Source: Rhodospirillales bacterium (GTDB lineage: Bacteria > Pseudomonadota > Alphaproteobacteria > Acetobacterales > Acetobacteraceae). From it: a stretch of DNA of 64,000 nt. Shown piece by piece: positions 3,440 through 52,677 of the stretch. Each line of letters begins with the position of its first letter. Position 1 is the stretch's first letter. The position numbers were made by a program, and so were the translations under genes. The stretch covers positions 1-64,000 of the forward strand of contig JANXTF010000034.1 in NCBI GenBank assembly GCA_025352565.1. Direction: 5' to 3'. Under the pieces are notes generated by a model that was not told the DNA's origin, did not search any database, and worked only from the letters and a program-made list of their open reading frames with translations.

Positions 3440-4750
3440 ATGGCACCCCGCGTCGATCCCGTCACGTCCGACGAGAGCCTGCCCCGCCGCACCTCCGTCG
3501 TGGTCATCGGCGGCGGCATCATCGGCGTCTCGACGGCGCTATTCCTGGCCGAGAAGGGCATCCCCGTGGTGCTCTGCGAGAAGGGCCACATCGCGGGCGA
3601 GCAATCCAGCCGCAACTGGGGCTGGACCCGCGTGATGGGCCGCGATCCGCGCGAGATTCCGCTCAGCCTGGAGAGCCTCAGGCTGTGGCGGCGGATGAAC
3701 GAGATCACCGGCGCCGAGACGGGATTTCGGCAATGCGGCATTGTCTATACCTGCGACACGCAACGCGAGGTCGCCGCCTACGAGGCGTGGCTCGAACAGG
3801 CCCGCGAATTCCAGCTCGACAGCCGCCTGCTGGCCCCGGACGAGATCGAGGCCATACTCCCCGGCGCCGCGCGCAAATTCGCCGGCGCCCTGCACACGCC
3901 GAGCGACGGCCGCGCCGAGCCCACCAAGGCCGCCCCCGCCATCGCGCTGGCCGCGCGCGCGAAAGGCGCCACCATTCTCACCGGCTGCGCGGTGCGCGGC
4001 ATCGAGACGAAGGCCGGCGCCGTCAGCGGCGTCGTCACCGAACGTGGGGCCATCGCCTGCGACAGCGTGGTGCTGGCCGGGGGCGCCTGGTCGCGCCTGT
4101 TCTGCGGCAATCTCGGCATCGACCTCCCCTCGCTGAAAATCCTCGGCTCCGTCATGCGCACCGAGCCCATCGCGGGCGCCCCCGACATCTCCGCCGGCGG
4201 CGCGGATTACTCGTTCCGCAAGCGCCTCGACGGCGGCTACACCGTGGTCCGGCGCAATGCCTCAGTCGCCGAGATCGTGCCGGACAGCTTCCGCCTGTTC
4301 AGCGACTTCATGCCGGCCCTGGTGCGCCAATGGAGCGAACTTCGGCTGCGCGTGGGCGGCCGCTTCCTCACCGAATGGAACACGCCCCGCCATTGGGCGA
4401 TGGATCAACGCACCCCGTTCGAACAGGTCCGCGTGCTCGACCCCGCCCCGAATGCCCGCCTCATCGCGCAAGGCCGCGACAACCTCGCCCGCACCTTCCC
4501 CGTCTTCGCCGGCATGAAGATCGCCGAGACCTGGGGCGGGCTGATCGACGTCACTCCCGACGGCGTCCCGGTGATATCCGCCGTCGAGTCGGTGCCCGGC
4601 TTCTTCCTCGCCACCGGCTTCTCCGGCCACGGCTTCGGCATCGGCCCCGGCGCCGGCCGCATGATGGCCGACATGGTGGCCGGCGACCCCACCGCCGTCG
4701 ACGCCACCCCGTACCGCTTCGACCGCTTCGCGCCCAGGTCGGTGCATTGA
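3440..4750 (+). CDS. FAD-dependent oxidoreductase (DAO/DadA family)
   Basis: A flavoprotein of 436 residues in the D-amino-acid oxidase/glycine oxidase family, which oxidises secondary or primary amines. An N-terminal dinucleotide-binding fingerprint (VVVIGGGIIGVSTALFLAEKG, then an acidic residue in CEKG) is followed by EQSSRNWGWTRV, a hallmark of this family near the flavin. The C-terminal flavin-contact motif is GFSGHGFGIGPGAGRMMADM. An in-frame TTG at 3431 is an alternative start, but it sits only two bases from the GGAG ribosome binding site. No ABC transporter or amine catabolic gene sits beside it, so the substrate cannot be inferred from context. Confidence 0.85.
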   Translation: MAPRVDPVTSDESLPRRTSVVVIGGGIIGVSTALFLAEKGIPVVLCEKGHIAGEQSSRNWGWTRVMGRDPREIPLSLESLRLWRRMNEITGAETGFRQCGIVYTCDTQREVAAYEAWLEQAREFQLDSRLLAPDEIEAILPGAARKFAGALHTPSDGRAEPTKAAPAIALAARAKGATILTGCAVRGIETKAGAVSGVVTERGAIACDSVVLAGGAWSRLFCGNLGIDLPSLKILGSVMRTEPIAGAPDISAGGADYSFRKRLDGGYTVVRRNASVAEIVPDSFRLFSDFMPALVRQWSELRLRVGGRFLTEWNTPRHWAMDQRTPFEQVRVLDPAPNARLIAQGRDNLARTFPVFAGMKIAETWGGLIDVTPDGVPVISAVESVPGFFLATGFSGHGFGIGPGAGRMMADMVAGDPTAVDATPYRFDRFAPRSVH

Positions 4751-4796
4751 GAGGGTGGGCAACGCCCGCGATCGTTCGTATGTAGGCGGCCCTTGA

Positions 4797-6962
4797 GTGG
4801 GAGAGCCTAAGTTGGACAGCGCGATCTTTGCCTCGACCCGCGAGGTCGAGCAGTTCGGCGGCCCAGTCGTTCGCCTGTATCAGACCGCGTTCGGCCGCGC
4901 GCCGGACGGCCCCGGCCTGCGGAGCTTCGTGGCCCTCCTGCGCGGCGGCGAGACCGTCGGCGGCATGGCCGAGCAACTCGTCGCAGCCGCCGAGTTCGCG
5001 GGCATCCACGGCACCGGCGTGCCGGACCTCGCCTATATCCGCCGCCTGCACACGAACGCCACCGGCGACGCGCCGCGCGACATCGACATCGCCGCCATCC
5101 TCGCCATGGCCGCCGGCGGCGCCTCCCGCGCGGACCTGCTCGCCGCGACGTCGGAGTCCGAAGCGGCCCGCGCCGGCATCAGCGTGCTCCGCGCCCTGGG
5201 CCCCGACCGCGTCCGCCCCGGCGATGACGACGCCTACCAGCTCTGGCTTGCCGAATACCCCGCGATCACCGAGGCCGACCGCGCCGGCATCGAGCGCCAC
5301 CTCGCCGCCATGGCGTCCCCGCCCGCGCTCACCCTGTTGATGGCGGCGCCCGAGTTCCGCGTCGACCTCGCGCTCGAGACCATCGCCTCGTTCCGCCGCC
5401 AGCTCTACCCCCACGTCGAACTGCGTGTGGCCATCCCCGCCGACACCTCGCCCGCGACCCGCGACGGCCTCACCCGCGCCGCGCGCGAAACTCCCGGCAT
5501 CGTGCTGGTCCCCGCCCCCGCCGCCGAGCCGGCCAGCCTGATCGAAGCCGCACTTGCCGGTGCCGACGGCTGCTTCGCCGGCATCCTCGAAGCCGGCGAC
5601 CAGCTCGCCCCCGAGGCGCTCTACCTCATGGCCGCCGCCATCGAGGCGAACCCCTCCGCCGTCATCGTCTACGGCGACGAGGACCGCATCGAGGGCACCG
5701 GCCGCCGCTATGCGGCGCGCCTCAAGACCGGCTGGAACCCCGACCTCCTGCTCGCCGGCGACGCGATCGGGCAGCTCGCCATGATCCGCGTGGAAAGCTG
5801 GCGCGCGGCCGGCGGCCTGCGCCCCGATCCGGCACCTTACGAGCGGTTCGACCTCGTGCTCCGCGTCCTCGGCGACGGCGCAACCGCGGCGCATGTCCCC
5901 TGGGTCCTGTTCCACCGCGGCCGCGGTGGCCGCAAGCGGCCGGCCGAATTCCCCGACGCCAGCGCCACCACCCTGCACCCGCGGTTGCTGGAAACAATCC
6001 GACGCCACCTCGCGCGCCACCCCTCCGCCGCGACGCTCGACGAGACCATCATCGGCGGCCGCCTCTGGCCCCGCATCGGCTTCGCCCTGCCCGACCCCGC
6101 CCCGCTGGTCTCCGTCATCATCCCCACCCGCGACCGCGCGGACCTGCTCGAGACCTGTCTTGCCGGCCTGCTCGGCCAGACCGACTACCCGGCACTCGAA
6201 ATCCTGATCGTGGACAATGGCAGCGTCGAACCGGCCACCCGTCGCCTGTTCGCCGAACTCGGCCGCGACAGGCGCGTCAGCGTGCTACCCTACGCGGAGG
6301 AGTTCAACTATTCCGCCATGAACAACATGGCCGCGCGCCAGGCGCGCGGCGACGTGCTGCTGATGCTGAACAACGATATCCGCGTCATCGAGCCGGGCTG
6401 GCTGCGCGAGATGGTCGGCCACGCCATGCGCCCCACGGTCGGCGCGGTCGGCGCGCGCCTGCTCTACCCGGAGGGCAACCTTCAGCATGGCGGCATCATG
6501 CTGGGCCCCGCCGGGCGTGCCAGTCACATCCTGCGCTGGTCCGGCCCCGATACCATCGGCTACCTTGGCCAGCTCGCCCTCACCCGCGACGTCGCCGCCG
6601 TCACCGGGGCCTGCCTCGCCATCCGCCGCGCGGTGTTCGAGGAAGTCGGCGGGCTTGAGGAGGACAACCTCCGCGTCACCTGGAACGACATCGACCTCTG
6701 CCTGCGCGTCCGCGCCCACGGCTACCGCGTGGTCTGGACGCCGCACGCGACGCTGACCCATGTCGAGCAGGCCAGCCGCCAGCGGGAGGACCAGGACCCC
6801 GGCCAGCTCGCGCGCTTCCAGGCCGAGCGCAACCATGTGTTATGGGCGTGGGGCGACGCCTTCGCGCAGGACCCGTTCCAGAACCCCGCGCTGCTTGCCA
6901 CCGACGACGACCTGCTGCTGGCCGAGCCGCCGCGCCGCCCGAAGCCGTGGCGGGAAAGCTGA
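4797..6962 (+). CDS. DUF4214 plus tandem GT2 glycosyltransferase
   Basis: A soluble protein of 721 residues for polysaccharide assembly. Residues about 20-75 match DUF4214 (LYQTAFGRAPDGPGLRSF), a domain common in surface-glycan and S-layer proteins. Residues about 190-370 resemble a degenerate GT-A domain (YGDEDRIEGTGRRYAARL). Residues about 435-680 are a full GT2 domain: PLVSVIIPTRDRADLLETCL, then the nucleotide-sugar metal site as LMLNNDIRVIEPGW, then the acceptor motif WNDIDLCLRVRAHGYRV. This resembles WbbL-type rhamnosyltransferases. The GTG start at 4797 is used; a TTG at 4812 is also possible. It ends just before the GHMP kinase, implying one operon. Donor and acceptor are unknown. Confidence 0.85.
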   Translation: MGEPKLDSAIFASTREVEQFGGPVVRLYQTAFGRAPDGPGLRSFVALLRGGETVGGMAEQLVAAAEFAGIHGTGVPDLAYIRRLHTNATGDAPRDIDIAAILAMAAGGASRADLLAATSESEAARAGISVLRALGPDRVRPGDDDAYQLWLAEYPAITEADRAGIERHLAAMASPPALTLLMAAPEFRVDLALETIASFRRQLYPHVELRVAIPADTSPATRDGLTRAARETPGIVLVPAPAAEPASLIEAALAGADGCFAGILEAGDQLAPEALYLMAAAIEANPSAVIVYGDEDRIEGTGRRYAARLKTGWNPDLLLAGDAIGQLAMIRVESWRAAGGLRPDPAPYERFDLVLRVLGDGATAAHVPWVLFHRGRGGRKRPAEFPDASATTLHPRLLETIRRHLARHPSAATLDETIIGGRLWPRIGFALPDPAPLVSVIIPTRDRADLLETCLAGLLGQTDYPALEILIVDNGSVEPATRRLFAELGRDRRVSVLPYAEEFNYSAMNNMAARQARGDVLLMLNNDIRVIEPGWLREMVGHAMRPTVGAVGARLLYPEGNLQHGGIMLGPAGRASHILRWSGPDTIGYLGQLALTRDVAAVTGACLAIRRAVFEEVGGLEEDNLRVTWNDIDLCLRVRAHGYRVVWTPHATLTHVEQASRQREDQDPGQLARFQAERNHVLWAWGDAFAQDPFQNPALLATDDDLLLAEPPRRPKPWRES

Positions 6963-46266: not shown

Positions 46267-46408
46267 ACCCGCGTGCCACATTCCCGGAGGGTCGGCGGAC
46301 TGCAGGCCGCTCGTTAGGGAGGCATGACTCGATCAATGCCGCCTTTCTTTTCTGCAAACGCCCGCTAAATCAGCGCCGGTTCAACGGGAGCGACACCCGC
46401 CGGTCGCG

Positions 46409-47590
46409 TCAATACGTCTCGACGTGATACCGCCCCTGGTCGCGCATCGCGTCGCGCAGCGATGGCCAATCGAGCGCGTGGGCCTGTGCGATCTCGGTGA
46501 ACGCCTGCTCCACGCCCTCCTCCAGCCCGCGCAGGCCGCAGACGAAGACATGCGTCGAATTTCGCCCGAGCAGTGCAGCGAGATCGGTGGCGCGGGCGCG
46601 CATCCGGTGTTGCACGTATTCCTTCGGCGCACCGGGCAGGCGGGAATACACCAACTCCCGATCCAGCAAACTGGCCGGGACCTTCTGCAACGGACCGAAA
46701 TACGGCAATTCCCGCGGCGTACGGGCGCCGAAGAACAGATAGAGGCGGCCCTTGGCCTTGGGGTTGGTGCGGCGGCGGCGTTCGGTAAAGCCGCGGAACG
46801 GCGCGCTGCCGGTGCCGGTGCAGATCATCACCAGGTCGGCGTCGGGATCGTCGGGCATCAGGAAGGTGGCGCCGAACGGCCCCACCACAGGTACATGGTC
46901 GCCGAGGCGGAGATCGCACAGATAGTTGGAGCCGACGCCGCTTCGCTTGACCGTCAGCGCCAGGTTGTTGGTGTTCGGCCGCTCGCCGTCCCGTGCGCTG
47001 CACACGGAATAAAGCCGCATGGCGTGCGGCTGCCCCGCTGCATCGAGGCCGGGCGGCAGGATCCCGATGCTCTGGCCCTCCAGCACGGGGAACGCGACCG
47101 CGCCGAAATCGAGGATGATATGGCGCACGTCGCTTTCAGTTTCTGCCCCGGTGAGGCGGAAATTACCGACGACGGTGGCCTGGGCCGGGCTCGCGCGGTT
47201 GAACTGATTGATGCGCGGTTTCGCGGCTGTCGCGGGCGCCCGCGCCCGCCCGCCAGCGCGGGCGTGCGCCTCGGCGATGAGGGCGGCGGCCTCGTCATCG
47301 AGCGCGTCGATCTCCTCGGTGGTGTCGTTGGCAGGCTCGGGCTGCGGCGGCAGCTCGGTCCAGCCGAATTGCTCATCGAGCGAGAACGGTGCCTGGACGG
47401 CGAACCAGTGGTCGATGGAACCGGTCGGACATGGGGCCACGCAATCCATGCAGAAATTACAGATCGCCGCATCGACCACGTAGTTGTCGTCGTTGTGCGT
47501 GATGGCGTCGATCGGACACGTCGCCTCGCACGTGTTGCAGCGGATGCAGACCTCGGGGTCGATCAGATGCTGTTTCTGGGCGGATGGCAT
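46409..47590 (-). CDS. boxA: Benzoyl-CoA 2,3-epoxidase reductase component BoxA
   Basis: A 393-residue iron-sulfur flavoprotein that passes electrons from NADPH to BoxB. The N-terminal ferredoxin domain has two 4Fe-4S sites (CIRCNTCEATCP and CNFCMDCVAPCP). A linker rich in Ala and Glu follows, then a ferredoxin-NADP reductase domain (MRLYSVCSARDGE for FAD, VMICTGTGSAPFRGF and HVFVCGLRGLEEGVEQAF for NADP). The order boxC-boxB-TA-boxA is all on the minus strand. The aerobic benzoyl-CoA route avoids ring hydroxylation of free benzoate. The benzoate-CoA ligase is not in the window. Confidence 0.95.
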   Translation of the reverse strand: MPSAQKQHLIDPEVCIRCNTCEATCPIDAITHNDDNYVVDAAICNFCMDCVAPCPTGSIDHWFAVQAPFSLDEQFGWTELPPQPEPANDTTEEIDALDDEAAALIAEAHARAGGRARAPATAAKPRINQFNRASPAQATVVGNFRLTGAETESDVRHIILDFGAVAFPVLEGQSIGILPPGLDAAGQPHAMRLYSVCSARDGERPNTNNLALTVKRSGVGSNYLCDLRLGDHVPVVGPFGATFLMPDDPDADLVMICTGTGSAPFRGFTERRRRTNPKAKGRLYLFFGARTPRELPYFGPLQKVPASLLDRELVYSRLPGAPKEYVQHRMRARATDLAALLGRNSTHVFVCGLRGLEEGVEQAFTEIAQAHALDWPSLRDAMRDQGRYHVETY

Positions 47591-47604
47591 GGGCGGGCTC
47601 GCGA

Positions 47605-47880
47605 TCAGGGGTATTGCTGGCGGGCGTGAAAGACGGCCATCACGCGGACAACGTCCACTTCCACTCGGTAGATCAAGATGTATTTGGGATGCACAACTGC
47701 TTCACATGTCCCATGCACCCGTCCAGAGCGGTGGAGAAAAGGATGGTCCGGCAGCCGCTCGGCACTCTGCTCGATCAACTCCTGCAGGCGGTCGGCAGCC
47801 GCAGGGTATCGACTATTGATATATTCAATGATCCGGCGCAGGTCCGTCCGAGCCTCACGAGCCCAGGCCAGTCGCAACAC
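47605..47880 (-). CDS. Type II toxin, RelE/ParE family
   Basis: A 91-residue protein from a GTG start at 47880. It matches the RelE/ParE plasmid-stabilisation fold: a first helix pair (WAREARTDLRRIIEYINSRYP), a basic loop, and the C-terminal strands ILIYRVEVDVVRVMAVFHAR. These toxins inhibit translation or gyrase; which of the two cannot be read here. Its start overlaps the antitoxin stop by 26 bases, the usual arrangement of such modules with antitoxin first. It sits 14 bases before boxA. Confidence 0.85.
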   Translation of the reverse strand: MLRLAWAREARTDLRRIIEYINSRYPAAADRLQELIEQSAERLPDHPFLHRSGRVHGTCEAVVHPKYILIYRVEVDVVRVMAVFHARQQYP

Positions 47881-48049
47881 GGCGCTTGCTTTCCAGCATT
47901 TCGCGGATCTCCGCCATCACCTCATCGTGCGGCATTCCAGGGTCGGTGCTCTTCATCCGCGCCTCGATCTTCGCACGGAACCAACGATCATACGCCTCGG
48001 CCTCCTCCGTGGTGGCGAACTCCGACTCGATCGGCGACAACTCGGGCAT
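47855..48049 (-). CDS. Antitoxin of the RelE/ParE pair
   Basis: A 64-residue protein starting MPELSPIESEFATTEEAEAY at 48049, with AGGAG about six bases upstream. It is acidic in the first half and helical, as antitoxins usually are: EEAEAYDRWFRAKIEARMKS. It matches the stability-type antitoxin group (often annotated as type II antitoxin of RelE/ParE systems) by position and overlap with the toxin rather than by a strong motif; no ribbon-helix-helix sequence is obvious. It lies 23 bases after the boxB stop. Confidence 0.75.
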   Translation of the reverse strand: MPELSPIESEFATTEEAEAYDRWFRAKIEARMKSTDPGMPHDEVMAEIREMLESKRRVATGLGS

Positions 48050-48072
48050 GGCGATCTCCTCGCACGGGGCGG

Positions 48073-49524
48073 CTAGGCCTCCCACAGCTTAACATACTCG
48101 AAATCGCCCGGCTTGTTGTCGATGCTCACGCGGGGCGGCGCGATCCACCCGGTATAGGCGCCAGTGGCGTTGACCGGCTTCATCAGGCTCTCGATGAACG
48201 CCCGGTCATCCTCGCCCGGCAGCGTGGCCGCGCGCACCATCTCCCACTCAACCTCCGACAACACCCGCCCATCGGTATCGGCGTGAATGCGCGCGAACTC
48301 GCCGATATGGCGATAATAGGCGACGTGCGGCAGCTTGAGGTGGAAGGCGATGCCGGCTTTTTCGATCACCTTGTTCCAGCGCCCCACGCCGCCCTGGCAA
48401 TCGGCCACGTAGTCGTCGCGCAGGCGCATGTTGAGCGCCGACAGGGCCGGCACCGGCTCCTCGACGAGTGCGCCGTCGATGCAGCGCAGCACCGGGTAGG
48501 TCGCGTCGAGCAGCCGGTGGTCGTCGGCCAGCTTATCCTCGCGATAGCGGCCCTTCAGCCCCGAGTTGAAGGCGTTGGCGGCATTGGTGCTGATCTCGTT
48601 GCCGAACAGGTCGAGCGTCAGAGAGAAGTGCAAATTCATTTTGCGCTGGATCGTGGGAAGATCGATCACGCCAAGCGCGCGCACGGCAACGACGTCATAC
48701 GGGTCCGCGATGCCGGCCTCCTTCATGGCCGCGACGGTGCGCTCCACCACGCGGCTCACGCCGGTTTCGCCCACGAACATGTGGTGGGCTTCCTCCGTCA
48801 GCATGAAGCGCGCGGTGCGGCTGAGCGGGTCGAAGCCGGATTGCGCCAGCGCCTCCAGCTGCATCTTGCCATCGCGGTCGGTGAAGAAGGTGAACATGAA
48901 GAAGCTGAGCCAGTCGGGCGTCGCCTCGTTGAACGCGCCCAGCATCCGCGGCGTGTCCTCATGGCCGGAGCGGCGGCGCAGCAGGTCGTCGGCCTCCTCG
49001 CGGCCCTGCGCGCCGAAATATTTCTGGAGGAGATACACCATGGCCCAGAGATGGCGGCCTTCCTCAACGTTCACCTGGAACAGGTTGCGCATGTCGTACA
49101 ACGAGGGGGCCGTGGCACCGAGATGGCGCTGCTGCTCGACCGAGGCGGGTTCGGTGTCGCCCTGGATCACCAGCAGGCGCCGCAGCATGGCGCGGTATTC
49201 GCCCGGGACTTCCTGCCAGGCGGGCTCGCCCTTGTGGGCACCGAAGCCAATAATGCGGCCTTCCACGGCGGGTGCCAGCAGAACACCCCATTTGTATTCC
49301 GGCATCCGCACGTAGTCGAATTTGGCCCAGCCCTTCGGGTCCACGCCGATCGCGGTGCGGAGATAGACCAGGCTCTCCTGGAACCCCACTGGCCCCATGT
49401 CCTTCCACCAGTCGATATAGCCGGGGTGCCAGGTCTCCAGCGCCTTGCGGACGCGGGCATCCTCGTTCAGGCCCACATTGTTCGGGATCAGGCCGTCATA
49501 GTTGACGCTCATGCCGTCGGGCAT
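48073..49524 (-). CDS. boxB: Benzoyl-CoA 2,3-epoxidase oxygenase subunit BoxB
   Basis: A 483-residue non-haem di-iron oxygenase that forms 2,3-epoxybenzoyl-CoA. Two Exx(H) helices carry the metal site: VNVEEGRHLWAMVYLLQKYF and RFMLTEEAHHMFVGETG. The N-terminal region SVNYDGLIPNNVGL and WHPGYIDWWKDMGPVGFQ is the BoxB signature. AAGGA lies before the ATG at 49524. Together with BoxA it forms the epoxidase; BoxC acts next. It follows boxC by 12 bases. Confidence 0.96.
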   Translation of the reverse strand: MPDGMSVNYDGLIPNNVGLNEDARVRKALETWHPGYIDWWKDMGPVGFQESLVYLRTAIGVDPKGWAKFDYVRMPEYKWGVLLAPAVEGRIIGFGAHKGEPAWQEVPGEYRAMLRRLLVIQGDTEPASVEQQRHLGATAPSLYDMRNLFQVNVEEGRHLWAMVYLLQKYFGAQGREEADDLLRRRSGHEDTPRMLGAFNEATPDWLSFFMFTFFTDRDGKMQLEALAQSGFDPLSRTARFMLTEEAHHMFVGETGVSRVVERTVAAMKEAGIADPYDVVAVRALGVIDLPTIQRKMNLHFSLTLDLFGNEISTNAANAFNSGLKGRYREDKLADDHRLLDATYPVLRCIDGALVEEPVPALSALNMRLRDDYVADCQGGVGRWNKVIEKAGIAFHLKLPHVAYYRHIGEFARIHADTDGRVLSEVEWEMVRAATLPGEDDRAFIESLMKPVNATGAYTGWIAPPRVSIDNKPGDFEYVKLWEA

Positions 49525-49536
49525 CTTTCAGGTCCT

Positions 49537-51195
49537 TCAGACGCGGGTTTGATCGAATTCGGGTTTCTGGCCGGTGCCGTAGCGTTTGAGCGCGCCGGTC
49601 TCGCCCACCGCGTTGGGGCGCTGGAATATCCAGTTCTGCCATGCGGTGAGCCGGCCGAAGATGCGGGTTTCCATGGTCTCGGGGCCGGGGAAACGGAGAT
49701 TGGCCTCCATGCCGGTGAGCGCGTCGGGCGAGTAGGCCACGCGCTCCTCCAGCATGATGCGCACCTCATCGGCCCAATCGGTGTCGTCATAGGCGAAGGT
49801 GACGAGGCCGAGTTCCTCCGCCGCCGCGGCGTCAAGGCTCCGGCCGATGGCAGCCTTGGCACGGCCGACGCTGTCGGGTTCGCCGAGGAAGCGGGTCTGC
49901 AGGCGGGTGAGGCCGTTGCCCATGAGGTAGGGACCGAAATTCATCGCGCTGAGCTGGATCGCGGCGGGCGGGCGGTTGTCGCCGCTCGCCTGGCCGACAT
50001 GGATCAGCGAACGGTCGGCGGCGAACAGGATCTCGGCCAGCGTGCCGGCGAAGCAGCTGCCGGGCTCGATCAGCGCGATGAGGCTGCGGGCCGTCATGTC
50101 GAGGCGCTTGAGCACACGCTTGAGGTAGAGGCGGGTTTCGCGGACGAACCAGTCGGTCGCATGGGCCTCGAGCAGCGCGTCGGCGGCGAGCACCTGGGCC
50201 GGGTCGCCCTCCGTGCGGAACACCAGGAGGCCCAATTGAGGTTCGTTGGTTCGCAGGTGCAGGATGGCGTCGTCCAGTTCGCGCGCCATCAGCAGCGGCC
50301 AGAACCGCGCAGCCGCCGACTTGATCCCGGCGAGGTCGGTCGGAAGCGGCGATCGCGGCGCGAGAATCGTGACTGTGGCACGCCGGCCTGGGCGGTCGAG
50401 CGCCACGCGGACATGGGAGTAGGTGACGGCGTCCTCGCCGAACACGCGGTCGATGGGCGGGAGCGTTACGCCCCCCTCGCCTTCCGGCCGGTCCGATTTC
50501 GCGGCCATCTCGAGCGCCCGCGCACGCACGGCCTGGGTCCAGCCCGAGGGTGGCACGATCTCGTCCACCAGCCGCCAATCGACGGCCTTGCGGCCGCGCA
50601 CGCCTTCCTCGACCGAGCAGAACACGTCAGCGAGGTCGCGCCGCACGCGGCGCTTGTCGGTCACGCGGGTCAGGCCGCCAGTGCCGGGGAGCACCGCCAG
50701 CAGCGCCGTCTCCGGCAGCGAGACGGTCGAGCGGCGGTCGTCGATCAGCATGATGTGGTCGGCCACCAAGGCCAGCTCATAACCGCCGCCAGCCGCGGTG
50801 CCGCTGACCGCGCAGAGATAACGCTGGCCGGAATTGTCGCAGGCATCCTCGATCGAAAGGCGCGTCTCGTTGGTGAACTTGCAGAAATTCACCTTATGGG
50901 CATGGGTCGCCCGGCCAAGCATCCGGATGTTGGCACCCGCGCAGAACACGTTCTCCTTGCCGGATTTGAGCACCACGGCGCGCACCTCGGGGTGCTCGAA
51001 GCGCAACCGCTGGACCGCATCGTACAGCTCGATGTCGACGCCGAGGTCGTAGGAATTGAGCTTCAGCTCATAGCCCTCGAACAGGCCGCCCGCGGCGTCC
51101 ACATCCATCACCAGTTCCGCCACCGGCCCATCGATCGCGATCGACCAATGGCGATAGCGGGACGGGTCGGTCTGAAACTCGATGCGCTGCTGCAT
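49537..51195 (-). CDS. boxC: 2,3-epoxybenzoyl-CoA dihydrolase BoxC
   Basis: A 552-residue crotonase-superfamily enzyme that opens the epoxide ring with two waters to give 3,4-dehydroadipyl-CoA semialdehyde and formate. It is a double-length crotonase: the first half has the oxyanion-hole regions GKENVFCAGANIRMLG and CAVSGTAAGGGYELALVADH, the second half a degenerate repeat ending with a family-specific tail (LTAWQNWIFQRPNAVG). The ATG at 51195 has AAGG eight bases upstream and lies just downstream of a TGCA-N6-TGCA site and a probable promoter. It is the first gene of the box operon. Confidence 0.95.
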   Translation of the reverse strand: MQQRIEFQTDPSRYRHWSIAIDGPVAELVMDVDAAGGLFEGYELKLNSYDLGVDIELYDAVQRLRFEHPEVRAVVLKSGKENVFCAGANIRMLGRATHAHKVNFCKFTNETRLSIEDACDNSGQRYLCAVSGTAAGGGYELALVADHIMLIDDRRSTVSLPETALLAVLPGTGGLTRVTDKRRVRRDLADVFCSVEEGVRGRKAVDWRLVDEIVPPSGWTQAVRARALEMAAKSDRPEGEGGVTLPPIDRVFGEDAVTYSHVRVALDRPGRRATVTILAPRSPLPTDLAGIKSAAARFWPLLMARELDDAILHLRTNEPQLGLLVFRTEGDPAQVLAADALLEAHATDWFVRETRLYLKRVLKRLDMTARSLIALIEPGSCFAGTLAEILFAADRSLIHVGQASGDNRPPAAIQLSAMNFGPYLMGNGLTRLQTRFLGEPDSVGRAKAAIGRSLDAAAAEELGLVTFAYDDTDWADEVRIMLEERVAYSPDALTGMEANLRFPGPETMETRIFGRLTAWQNWIFQRPNAVGETGALKRYGTGQKPEFDQTRV

Positions 51196-51215
51196 GGTCG
51201 TCGCCTTCGACTTTA

Positions 51216-51229
51216 TGCAATATAATGCA
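51216..51229 (-). promoter_or_regulatory. TGCA-N6-TGCA operator (BoxR/BzdR type) overlapping the box promoter
   Basis: TGCA at 51216-51219 and 51226-51229 are separated by six AT bases. A minus-strand promoter candidate has TTGCGG at 51248-51243 and TATATT at 51224-51219 with 18-base spacing, so the operator straddles the -10 element. BzdR/BoxR-type repressors of benzoyl-CoA catabolism bind TGCA-N6-TGCA and are released by benzoyl-CoA. The predicted message would begin about 15-20 bases before boxC. Confidence 0.65.
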
Positions 51230-51260
51230 TTTTCAGGGATGGCCGCAAGCGCAATATGAC

Positions 51261-52061
51261 TTATCGTGCAGGTTTCTCGTGAGCGGCAATCCGCTCGACG
51301 AAATCCGCGATCGCGTCCATCGCCGGTGCGGGGGATTCAAGGTGTGGTGCGTGACCGGCGCCCGCGAGCATCACGGTTTCGACCGGGCAATAGGCCGCGT
51401 CTTCGGCGAACCGCGGCTGGTCCAGGCTGCCATACATATCCTCCGTGCCCTGGATTTGCAGGATGGGAACACGGATATGGGCGATATGGCCGTGCAGGTC
51501 GAGGACCGCCGGGAAGCCGGGGTTGAGCCAGGCGCCGTTCCAGCCATGGAACAATTCGTCCACGCCGTCGTGGTGACGCGCCATGCGTTGCCGAAGGCCG
51601 CCCTCCTCGTAGGCGACCCGTGCCGCCGCGATGGCGGCGACCGTCACGGTTTCGACGAAATAATGCGGCGCGATCAGGACGAGTCCGCGCACCCGTGGGT
51701 CCCATGTGCCGCCTGCGTACAGCGCGGCGATGGTGGCGCCATCGGAGTGGCCGACGAGTATCGCACGGCCAATGCCGGCCGCGTCCAGAACCCTGCCCAC
51801 GACGCGTTCCGCTTCGAGGTGCAGGTAATTCAAGGGACGGGGCGAGGGTGCGAGGCCCGATCTCCCGTGTCCCGCACGGGACCAGGCGAAAACGCCCAGG
51901 CCGGTGCGCGCCGCGAGCCTGGCCGGAAAATCGCGCCACAGGCCGACCGAGCCGAGGCCCTCGTGGAGAAGCACCAAGGTCGGGTCGGACTCACAACCCC
52001 ACCAGCACGCCTCCAGGGCAATGCCGTCAATATCCAGGATCAGTCGGGTTTCAGAGATCAT
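51261..52061 (-). CDS. Alpha/beta hydrolase of the box region
   Basis: A 266-residue cytoplasmic alpha/beta hydrolase. The oxyanion region is LVLLHEGLGSVGLWRDFP, the nucleophile elbow is LVGHSDGATIAALYA with serine, the acid is in QGTEDMYG, and the histidine is in AGAGHAPHLESP. Alpha/beta hydrolases are frequent in box clusters and may relieve CoA-thioester or lactone dead ends. It lies 65 bases upstream of boxC on the same strand. Its ATG directly follows the T-tract of a strong terminator and has no clear ribosome binding site, so expression may be low or leaderless. Confidence 0.82.
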   Translation of the reverse strand: MISETRLILDIDGIALEACWWGCESDPTLVLLHEGLGSVGLWRDFPARLAARTGLGVFAWSRAGHGRSGLAPSPRPLNYLHLEAERVVGRVLDAAGIGRAILVGHSDGATIAALYAGGTWDPRVRGLVLIAPHYFVETVTVAAIAAARVAYEEGGLRQRMARHHDGVDELFHGWNGAWLNPGFPAVLDLHGHIAHIRVPILQIQGTEDMYGSLDQPRFAEDAAYCPVETVMLAGAGHAPHLESPAPAMDAIADFVERIAAHEKPAR

Positions 52062-52063
52062 CG

Positions 52064-52109
52064 AAAAGACGGCATTGCCGCCGGCCTGACCGGGCCGGCG
52101 GCAATGCCG
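52064..52109 (-). terminator. Intrinsic terminator after the helix-hairpin-helix gene
   Basis: A perfect 17-bp stem: arms 52070-52086 and 52093-52109, with loop TGACCG. On the minus strand it is followed by TCTTTTC. It lies ten bases after the stop of the gene at 52120-52677, so it should end that transcript. The next gene's ATG begins three bases after the T-tract. Confidence 0.88.
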
Positions 52110-52119
52110 CGGCGTATCG

Positions 52120-52677
52120 TCAGCTCGCGGTGATCTGCGTCTTGATCTTGTTGTAGACGCTCATCGGCAGGACCTTCTTGCTCACCAGTTCGTCCGTGGT
52201 CTTGTACGGGCGCATCTTGATGATCTTGGCGGCACGTGACTTGCCGATCTGCGGCACCTTGTCGAGTTCGGAGGCGCTCGCGGTGTTGATGTTGGTCATC
52301 GACATCGCGGGCATCGCGGTGCTGCTGGTGGCCGGCATCGCTCCAGTGGACGACATCGCACCGGTGGCCGGCATCGACGACGCGGGCATGGCCGGCCCTG
52401 GGCGGGTTCCCGTGGCGTAGGAGCCGTTGGTGGTCGTGGTGACGTTGCCGTTCGGCGCGGAACCGATGCCGGCCGGCGCACCAGGGATGCCGACGGAGCC
52501 GCGGGCCGCGGGAACCACCGTTGTGGTAGAGCCGCCGCTGCTGGTCGTGGTGGTGATGTTGCCGTTCGGCGCAGAGCCGATGCCGGCCGGCGCCGGGGCG
52601 GGGGACACCTGCGCGAATGCGGGCGCCGCGATCATCGTGCCGCAGAGCAGGGCCACGGCGAGTTGTTTGAGCTTCAT
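52120..52677 (-). CDS. Secreted helix-hairpin-helix protein (ComEA-like)
   Basis: A 185-residue protein with a signal peptide (MKLKQLAVALLCGTMIAAPA). A low-complexity middle contains two copies of AGIGSAPNGN followed by TTTT, then a Met/Pro/Ala/Ser-rich stretch. The C-terminal 60 residues are a helix-hairpin-helix domain of the ComEA/T2SS-K type: NINTASASELDKVPQIGKSR then a second unit. Such periplasmic domains bind DNA in competence or act as structural modules. No competence genes are nearby. A 41-bp DNA direct repeat (52439-52479, 52553-52593) encodes the duplicated middle. Confidence 0.78.
   Translation of the reverse strand: MKLKQLAVALLCGTMIAAPAFAQVSPAPAPAGIGSAPNGNITTTTSSGGSTTTVVPAARGSVGIPGAPAGIGSAPNGNVTTTTNGSYATGTRPGPAMPASSMPATGAMSSTGAMPATSSTAMPAMSMTNINTASASELDKVPQIGKSRAAKIIKMRPYKTTDELVSKKVLPMSVYNKIKTQITAS
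52439..52593 (-). repeat. 41-bp direct repeat inside the helix-hairpin-helix gene
   Basis: Copies at 52439-52479 and 52553-52593 differ at only a few positions, beginning GTGA(C/T)GTTGCCGTTCGGCGC. They encode the repeated AGIGSAPNGN segment. It reflects internal duplication of the flexible linker and could vary in copy number between strains. Confidence 0.85.

Follow-up and report, generated by a model that had tools for sequence, protein, structure and literature searches.

We analysed a 64-kb stretch of a Rhodospirillales genome (Acetobacteraceae; assembly GCA_025352565.1, contig JANXTF010000034.1, positions 1 to 64,000; hereafter the window), in which a two-gene toxin-antitoxin (TA) module lies inside the box operon, an aromatic-degradation operon, between boxB and boxA. 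The module is probably a horizontally acquired cassette of the PaaA2-ParE2 type, a passenger in the boxB-boxA gap that borrows the promoter of boxC. Its antitoxin consists of toxin-binding helices only, none of the 34 other boxB-boxA junctions compared carries such a pair, and the operator ahead of boxC occupies a conserved place. All five genes are read from the minus strand in the order boxC, boxB, antitoxin, toxin, boxA; identities of the box genes were judged against curated NCBIfam cut-offs.

51216..51229, minus strand: BoxR/BzdR-type operator TGCA-N6-TGCA upstream of boxC (site shared by 50/73 loci)
49537..51195, minus strand: boxC, 2,3-epoxybenzoyl-CoA dihydrolase (TIGR03222, 925.7 bits, cut-off 712.3)
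48073..49524, minus strand: boxB, benzoyl-CoA 2,3-epoxidase subunit BoxB (TIGR03225, 850.4 bits, cut-off 499.1)
48050..48072, minus strand: boxB-antitoxin spacer, 23 bp, with a ribosome-binding-like word GAGGAG; too short for a full promoter
47855..48049, minus strand: antitoxin of PaaA2 type, 64 residues, ATG start (family match, PDB relative, model)
47605..47880, minus strand: toxin of ParE2 type, 91 residues, GTG start within the antitoxin gene (family, PDB relative, model)
47591..47604, minus strand: toxin-boxA spacer, 14 bp, by eye without a clear ribosome-binding site for boxA
46409..47590, minus strand: boxA, benzoyl-CoA 2,3-epoxidase subunit BoxA (TIGR03224, 538.8 bits, cut-off 459.2)

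The initial annotation, made from the sequence, had placed a TA pair between boxB and boxA on one strand with spacers of 23 and 14 bp, and the coordinates confirm all of this. It had also described the stretch from boxB through the pair to boxA as having no visible break, and a search between boxB and boxA gave no terminator-like site. The start of the toxin gene overlaps the end of the antitoxin gene by 26 bp.

The pair belongs to the PaaA2-ParE2 type

Against PF05016 the toxin scores 61.2 bits (cut-off 23), and the antitoxin reaches 44.8 bits (cut-off 27) against PF21217, the PaaA2 family. Among PDB sequences, the best relatives of both proteins are partners of the PaaA2/ParE2 complex (3zbe, 5cw7, 5cze, 5czf; E 1.2e-08 for the antitoxin against PaaA2), which comes from E. 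coli O157 (PMC8630535). A structural model of the toxin, built from 15 aligned sequences with a predicted local distance difference test score (pLDDT) of 92.4, has ParE2 chains as its top five fold matches (query-normalised template-modelling score 0.91-0.93, 40-41% identity). Other ParE toxins follow, with YoeB, YafQ and RelE lower. Broader NCBIfam names, RelE/StbE for the toxin and RelB for the antitoxin, were also matched. A RelE-type mRNA interferase was considered and rejected: the toxin passes TIGR02385 (41.7 bits, cut-off 27.9), but both sequence and fold rank ParE2 first. Thus, of the earlier label ‘RelE/ParE’, the ParE half holds in the form of a ParE2-like toxin, while the RelE half was dropped despite the RelE/StbE cut-off having been passed. 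Neither reading frame is truncated, and both proteins retain the columns conserved in at least 90% of aligned relatives.

The antitoxin has three residues ahead of the conserved motif and no DNA-binding domain, and its model consists of two helices without a strand (pLDDT 84). The canonical domain of an autoregulated type II antitoxin (RelB/ParD, ribbon-helix-helix (RHH) or similar) is not present in it. Classical autorepression is thus not expected, and the antitoxin is probably unable to control its own gene. The general remark in the initial annotation that most type II modules repress themselves loses weight here, as self-repression is not expected of a sub-family with PaaA2-type antitoxins. 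According to published work, PaaA2 itself carries no DNA-binding domain, answers to a separate regulator and is degraded by ClpAP/ClpXP (PMC8630535).

Relatives of the toxin are plentiful on plasmids, with matches in 1957 PLSDB records. A phage origin was considered and rejected, there being a single phage record and no confirmed relative in viral contigs (in a search reaching close relatives only); a defence system was likewise set aside, neither protein having a PADLOC match. The genome of the window holds one other ParE-family toxin (52.8 bits; G000:C119:7365-7631, locus L002).

The boxB-boxA junction in other genomes

We sought boxB in 120 relatives, 19 of which gave a match (the window's own genome included), and in a one-genome-per-species collection, from which the best 80 of at least 590 confirmed relatives were taken; some species may be represented in both. 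A boxA gene (at least 50% identity) followed boxB in 36 rows, two of them the window itself and 34 others. The remaining loci are uninformative on the junction, having no such boxA beside boxB or ending early. The gap at the 34 other junctions was 1-352 bp in 32 cases and 1.8-2.4 kb in two, and a tblastn search (E 1e-3) of these loci turned up no homologue of the toxin or of the antitoxin. The comparison of the junction in related genomes that the initial annotation had proposed thus finds the pair in the window's genome alone among those compared, an outcome that argues against general selection for tying growth control to benzoate use. The pair looks like a local insertion.

In four genomes of the window's family (L005, L008, L009 and L011) boxA starts 1-14 bp after boxB, so that its translation is possibly coupled to that of boxB. 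In the window, translation of boxA may now depend on, or be coupled to, the toxin gene.

A different arrangement was seen in Bradyrhizobium tropiciagri, where a RelB antitoxin (102 residues, PF04221) and a ParE-family toxin (98 residues, PF05016, 72.8 bits) directly follow boxB on the opposite strand (L102:5636-6237, minus strand). This pair is of a different type and stands on its own, adjoining the 3′ side of boxB.

Both TA genes are poorer in GC than the genes beside them, with GC fractions of 0.683 for the window, 0.668 for boxA, 0.652 for boxB, 0.626 for the antitoxin and 0.591 for the toxin, and GC at third codon positions is 0.652 in the toxin gene versus 0.876 in boxB. Scored per codon with a model trained on box genes, codon usage is neutral for the toxin (0.001) and stands at 0.333 for the antitoxin and 0.302 for boxA.

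Operator, promoter and regulator

The TGCA-N6-TGCA site is the sole exact match in the window, where 0.93 would be expected by chance. The operator is supported because its place upstream of boxC is conserved, and not because of this count, which equals the chance expectation. Fifty of the 73 loci compared carry the motif no more than 250 bp ahead of boxC, against three matches in the 491,114 bp that run on from the start of boxC in the same loci; many of these loci are from Bradyrhizobium and are not independent. The same motif is given for BoxR/BzdR (PMC6449761, PMC6678401), and the earlier proposal of a benzoyl-CoA-type operator ahead of boxC is upheld by this conservation. A TATATT word sits inside the operator and could be a -10 element. 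On another contig of the same genome, an open reading frame (ORF) of 323 residues (L216:1027-1998) matches HTH_3 (42 bits) and SKI (130.1 bits). A helix-turn-helix plus a shikimate-kinase domain is what we take to be the make-up of BoxR/BzdR, and the ORF is presumed to encode a BoxR-like candidate repressor.

A scan for sigma-70-like promoters found none in 46300-52200, where 0.8 would be expected by chance; the result carries little weight, since the scan did not pick up a promoter for boxC either. The 23 bp between boxB and the antitoxin gene are too short for a separate promoter.

A cassette that probably borrows the control of its host operon

Together these observations make the following course of events probable. 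A cassette of at most 482 bp would have inserted into the boxB-boxA intercistronic gap, and boxC, boxB, the pair and boxA would most likely be transcribed from the boxC promoter, with BoxR repression lifted by benzoyl-CoA. We infer horizontal acquisition, co-transcription, BoxR control, toxicity and neutralisation; co-transcription with the box genes is likely in view of an antitoxin without a DNA-binding domain, the lack of a regulator gene brought along and the lack of room for a promoter. The pair would be translated from its own GAGGAG ribosome-binding site, the toxin start overlapping the antitoxin end, and would be a passenger on host operon control, as PaaA2-ParE2 borrows the control of its prophage. 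Once inserted, the segment could penalise its own loss. Cells on benzoate would make both proteins, and when the operon is shut, decay of the antitoxin could free the toxin. The locus offers a clean natural case, in which a TA pair that is probably not self-repressing lies downstream of a promoter whose small-molecule switch is known; a review describes the movement of TA modules, their chromosomal integration and whether their place gives them function as unresolved (PMC7167474).

Several observations weigh against this reading. In 23 of the 73 loci, among them L023-L025, the first three listed from the one-genome-per-species collection, the 250 bp before boxC lack the strict operator. The promoter scan may catch alphaproteobacterial promoters poorly, and a promoter may lie within the 3′ end of boxB. 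As the codon score of the antitoxin is not below that of boxA, only the toxin looks foreign by codons. The pair is flanked by a 6-bp repeat, CCGCCC; as 973 of 5000 shuffles produced a repeat of equal length, a target-site duplication was rejected as no better than chance, and no insertion signature is left. No second genome with a TA pair at the boxB-boxA junction was found; an assembly error at the junction is improbable. Finally, two pairs of the same type in the window's family are antisense to their neighbours, one between the urease alpha gene and ureE (L177:4546-5019) and one between an ATP-binding-cassette-transporter ATPase gene and urease genes (L178:5251-5714). These presumably need a promoter of their own, which implies that a promoter can sit just upstream of, or inside, such cassettes.

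Comparison with known systems

The closest parallel is paaR2-paaA2-parE2 of the E. coli O157:H7 prophage CP-933P, which the box pair resembles in the fold and sequence of the toxin and in a short antitoxin without a DNA-binding domain. Transcription of the prophage pair belongs to the surrounding locus, and the same is presumed for the box pair; paaA2-parE2 was possibly inserted in a region whose control it borrows (PMC8630535). Unlike the prophage pair, the box pair is preceded by boxB and not by paaR (no search with a PaaR profile was made), and its presumed controller is a catabolic repressor of the BoxR/BzdR type encoded on another contig.

Insertion of TA modules into operons is documented. 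In E. coli, mazEF lies between relA and mazG and yafNO within dinB-yafP, under SOS control, both as intercistronic insertions, and ccd occupies the folA-apaH gap (PMC7167474). As in dinB-yafNO-yafP and relA-mazEF-mazG, the box pair sits within an operon that is undisturbed in other strains (PMC7167474); unlike in those cases, the host is an aromatic-degradation operon, and the insertion splits the subunit genes of one enzyme. The box arrangement is therefore less exceptional than first held in the initial annotation, which had called embedding between the subunits of one oxygenase unusual. We regard the arrangement as unusual rather than unprecedented, operon-inserted TA pairs being a known kind and the new features being an antitoxin without an autoregulatory domain, a catabolic operon as host and a place between one enzyme's subunit genes. 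Among open-licence PMC papers, none dealt by title with a TA pair in a boxB-boxA arrangement, and none was found on PaaA2 together with fkpB/ispH.

Relatives of the pair at other sites

The nearest relative among the pairs aligned (L176; 64% identity in both proteins) lies between genes for an acyl-CoA dehydrogenase and a family III CoA-transferase. In 23 other rows with this gene order the two genes are -15 to 17 bp apart in 13 and 47-1065 bp apart in 10, and in G015, of the same genus as L176, matches run to the dehydrogenase stop and are followed by an unrelated ORF of about 1 kb. A special hotspot at this junction was considered and rejected, nine other gaps holding, by eye, other ORFs or short sequence and no such pair.

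In L246 and L247 the pair lies between an FKBP-type gene and ispH/lytB. A search for FKBP-ispH in the genus returned 30 loci from 40 genomes: 27 have a gap of 5-226 bp and no pair, one lacks an FKBP match, and two carry the pair (L327, from the same genome as L246, and L330, with a 67-residue toxin match only). As L247 came from another search, PaaA2-ParE2-type pairs are found at the fkpB-ispH junction in three genomes (L246, L247 and L330, the last with a partial toxin match). In L185 the pair follows ispG (GcpE) and precedes a glutathione-transferase-like gene. The gene upstream of the pair is no regulator in L176, L185 or L246.

Position of pairs without a DNA-binding domain

We compared the positions of two sets of loci from searches with NF050103. 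Set A comprises 29 places with at least 58 bits and a match starting at model position 1-9, plus the window, 30 loci in all; a few weaker matches also starting at position 9 (G203, G596, G1217; below 31 bits) are omitted from it. Its antitoxins have 59-68 residues, with 3-11 ahead of the motif. Set B comprises 38 loci chosen by hand from the partial matches, not all of which were taken (start position at least 11, mostly at least 40 bits); in 36 of the 38 the match is preceded by 40 residues or more, and by eye these are mostly of RHH type. Gene predictions came from a purpose-written caller based on a codon model of box genes, and positions were counted where more than 300 bp of sequence flanked the pair on each side, which was the case for 27 loci of set A and 34 of set B.

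A co-directional gene less than 50 bp upstream was found in 5 of 27 set A loci versus 0 of 34 in set B (one-sided Fisher test, P-value 0.014), and the same counts and P-value were obtained for pairs sandwiched in line with less than 100 bp on both sides. The five sandwiched loci are the window, L176, L185, L246 and L247; counting L246 and L247, which share one site, once gives 4/26 versus 0/34 (P-value about 0.03). Other distances gave weaker contrasts: 9/27 versus 5/34 for a co-directional gene less than 100 bp upstream (P-value 0.08) and 2/27 versus 0/34 for sandwiches with less than 50 bp on both sides (P-value 0.19). As the thresholds were picked with the list in view, the two sets are taxonomically different and the window is itself among the five, the excess of in-line positions among pairs without a DNA-binding domain is suggestive only. 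A general ‘promoterless cassette’ rule was rejected, since a co-directional gene is missing from the 100 bp upstream of 18 of the 27 sub-family pairs.

The survey hints that loss of the DNA-binding domain accompanies settling inside operons, which would explain persistence without autoregulation. In its broad form, that PaaA2-ParE2 pairs without this domain are regulator-less cassettes that settle in line in operons and adopt local control, the idea is speculative and we give it little credence; were it true, a growth-arresting toxin would answer to benzoyl-CoA in this genome and be freed by benzoate exhaustion or operon loss.

By a simple rule, a toxin-sized ORF was present in 22 of the 30 set A loci, some picks being doubtful (L179, L249), and 15 toxins were aligned together with that of the window. 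In L179, a PaaA2-type antitoxin around 4600-5088 (minus strand) is followed by an ORF resembling by eye a nucleotidyltransferase and not a ParE toxin; its toxin partner has possibly been swapped.

Alternative explanations

The pair might keep a constitutive promoter of its own, situated within the antitoxin gene or the 3′ end of boxB; its expression would then not depend on benzoate, and its position inside the operon would be incidental. Other pairs without a DNA-binding domain (such as L177, L178 and L213) do have an opposite-strand gene as their nearest upstream neighbour, and hence presumably a promoter close to their 5′ end, and the many plasmid relatives of the toxin fit such autonomy. 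So does a plasmid ParDE pair, whose toxin is in places annotated YacB and which was cloned with a putative promoter and ribosome-binding site of its own (PMC6614396). The ParDE-I / YacB plasmid stabilisation pairs are like the box pair in having two genes and a ParE-type toxin with relatives common on plasmids, and unlike it in being plasmid-borne with those putative signals (PMC6614396). In the window just 23 bp of non-box DNA precede the antitoxin, with no promoter-like site there or in the 3′ end of boxB, and we regard a promoter of its own as unlikely.

Selected wiring into catabolism is very unlikely. The pair would then act as an alarm for benzoate exhaustion, the labile antitoxin decaying first and the ParE2-like toxin slowing growth. 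The conserved operator together with the missing autoregulatory domain, the instability of PaaA2 through ClpAP/ClpXP (PMC8630535) and the place of the closest aligned homologue (L176), also in a string of acyl-CoA genes, count in favour of this proposal. It is opposed by the absence of the pair from all 34 other junctions and by the precedent of mazEF and yafNO, for which a review sees no functional link to the host cistrons (PMC7167474).

Least credible of all is an assembly artefact that placed the pair in the operon, or a dying relic without function: the genome is a draft of 164 contigs, the junction occurs in one genome only and a relative at another site (L330) yields a toxin match of just 67 residues, but both frames are full length with their conserved columns kept, and only short, clean spacers separate the pair from boxB and boxA.

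Around the operon, the genes called at 44.8-54.0 kb encode, besides the box proteins, a major facilitator superfamily transporter, an alpha/beta hydrolase, a helix-hairpin-helix protein and a CoA-transferase.

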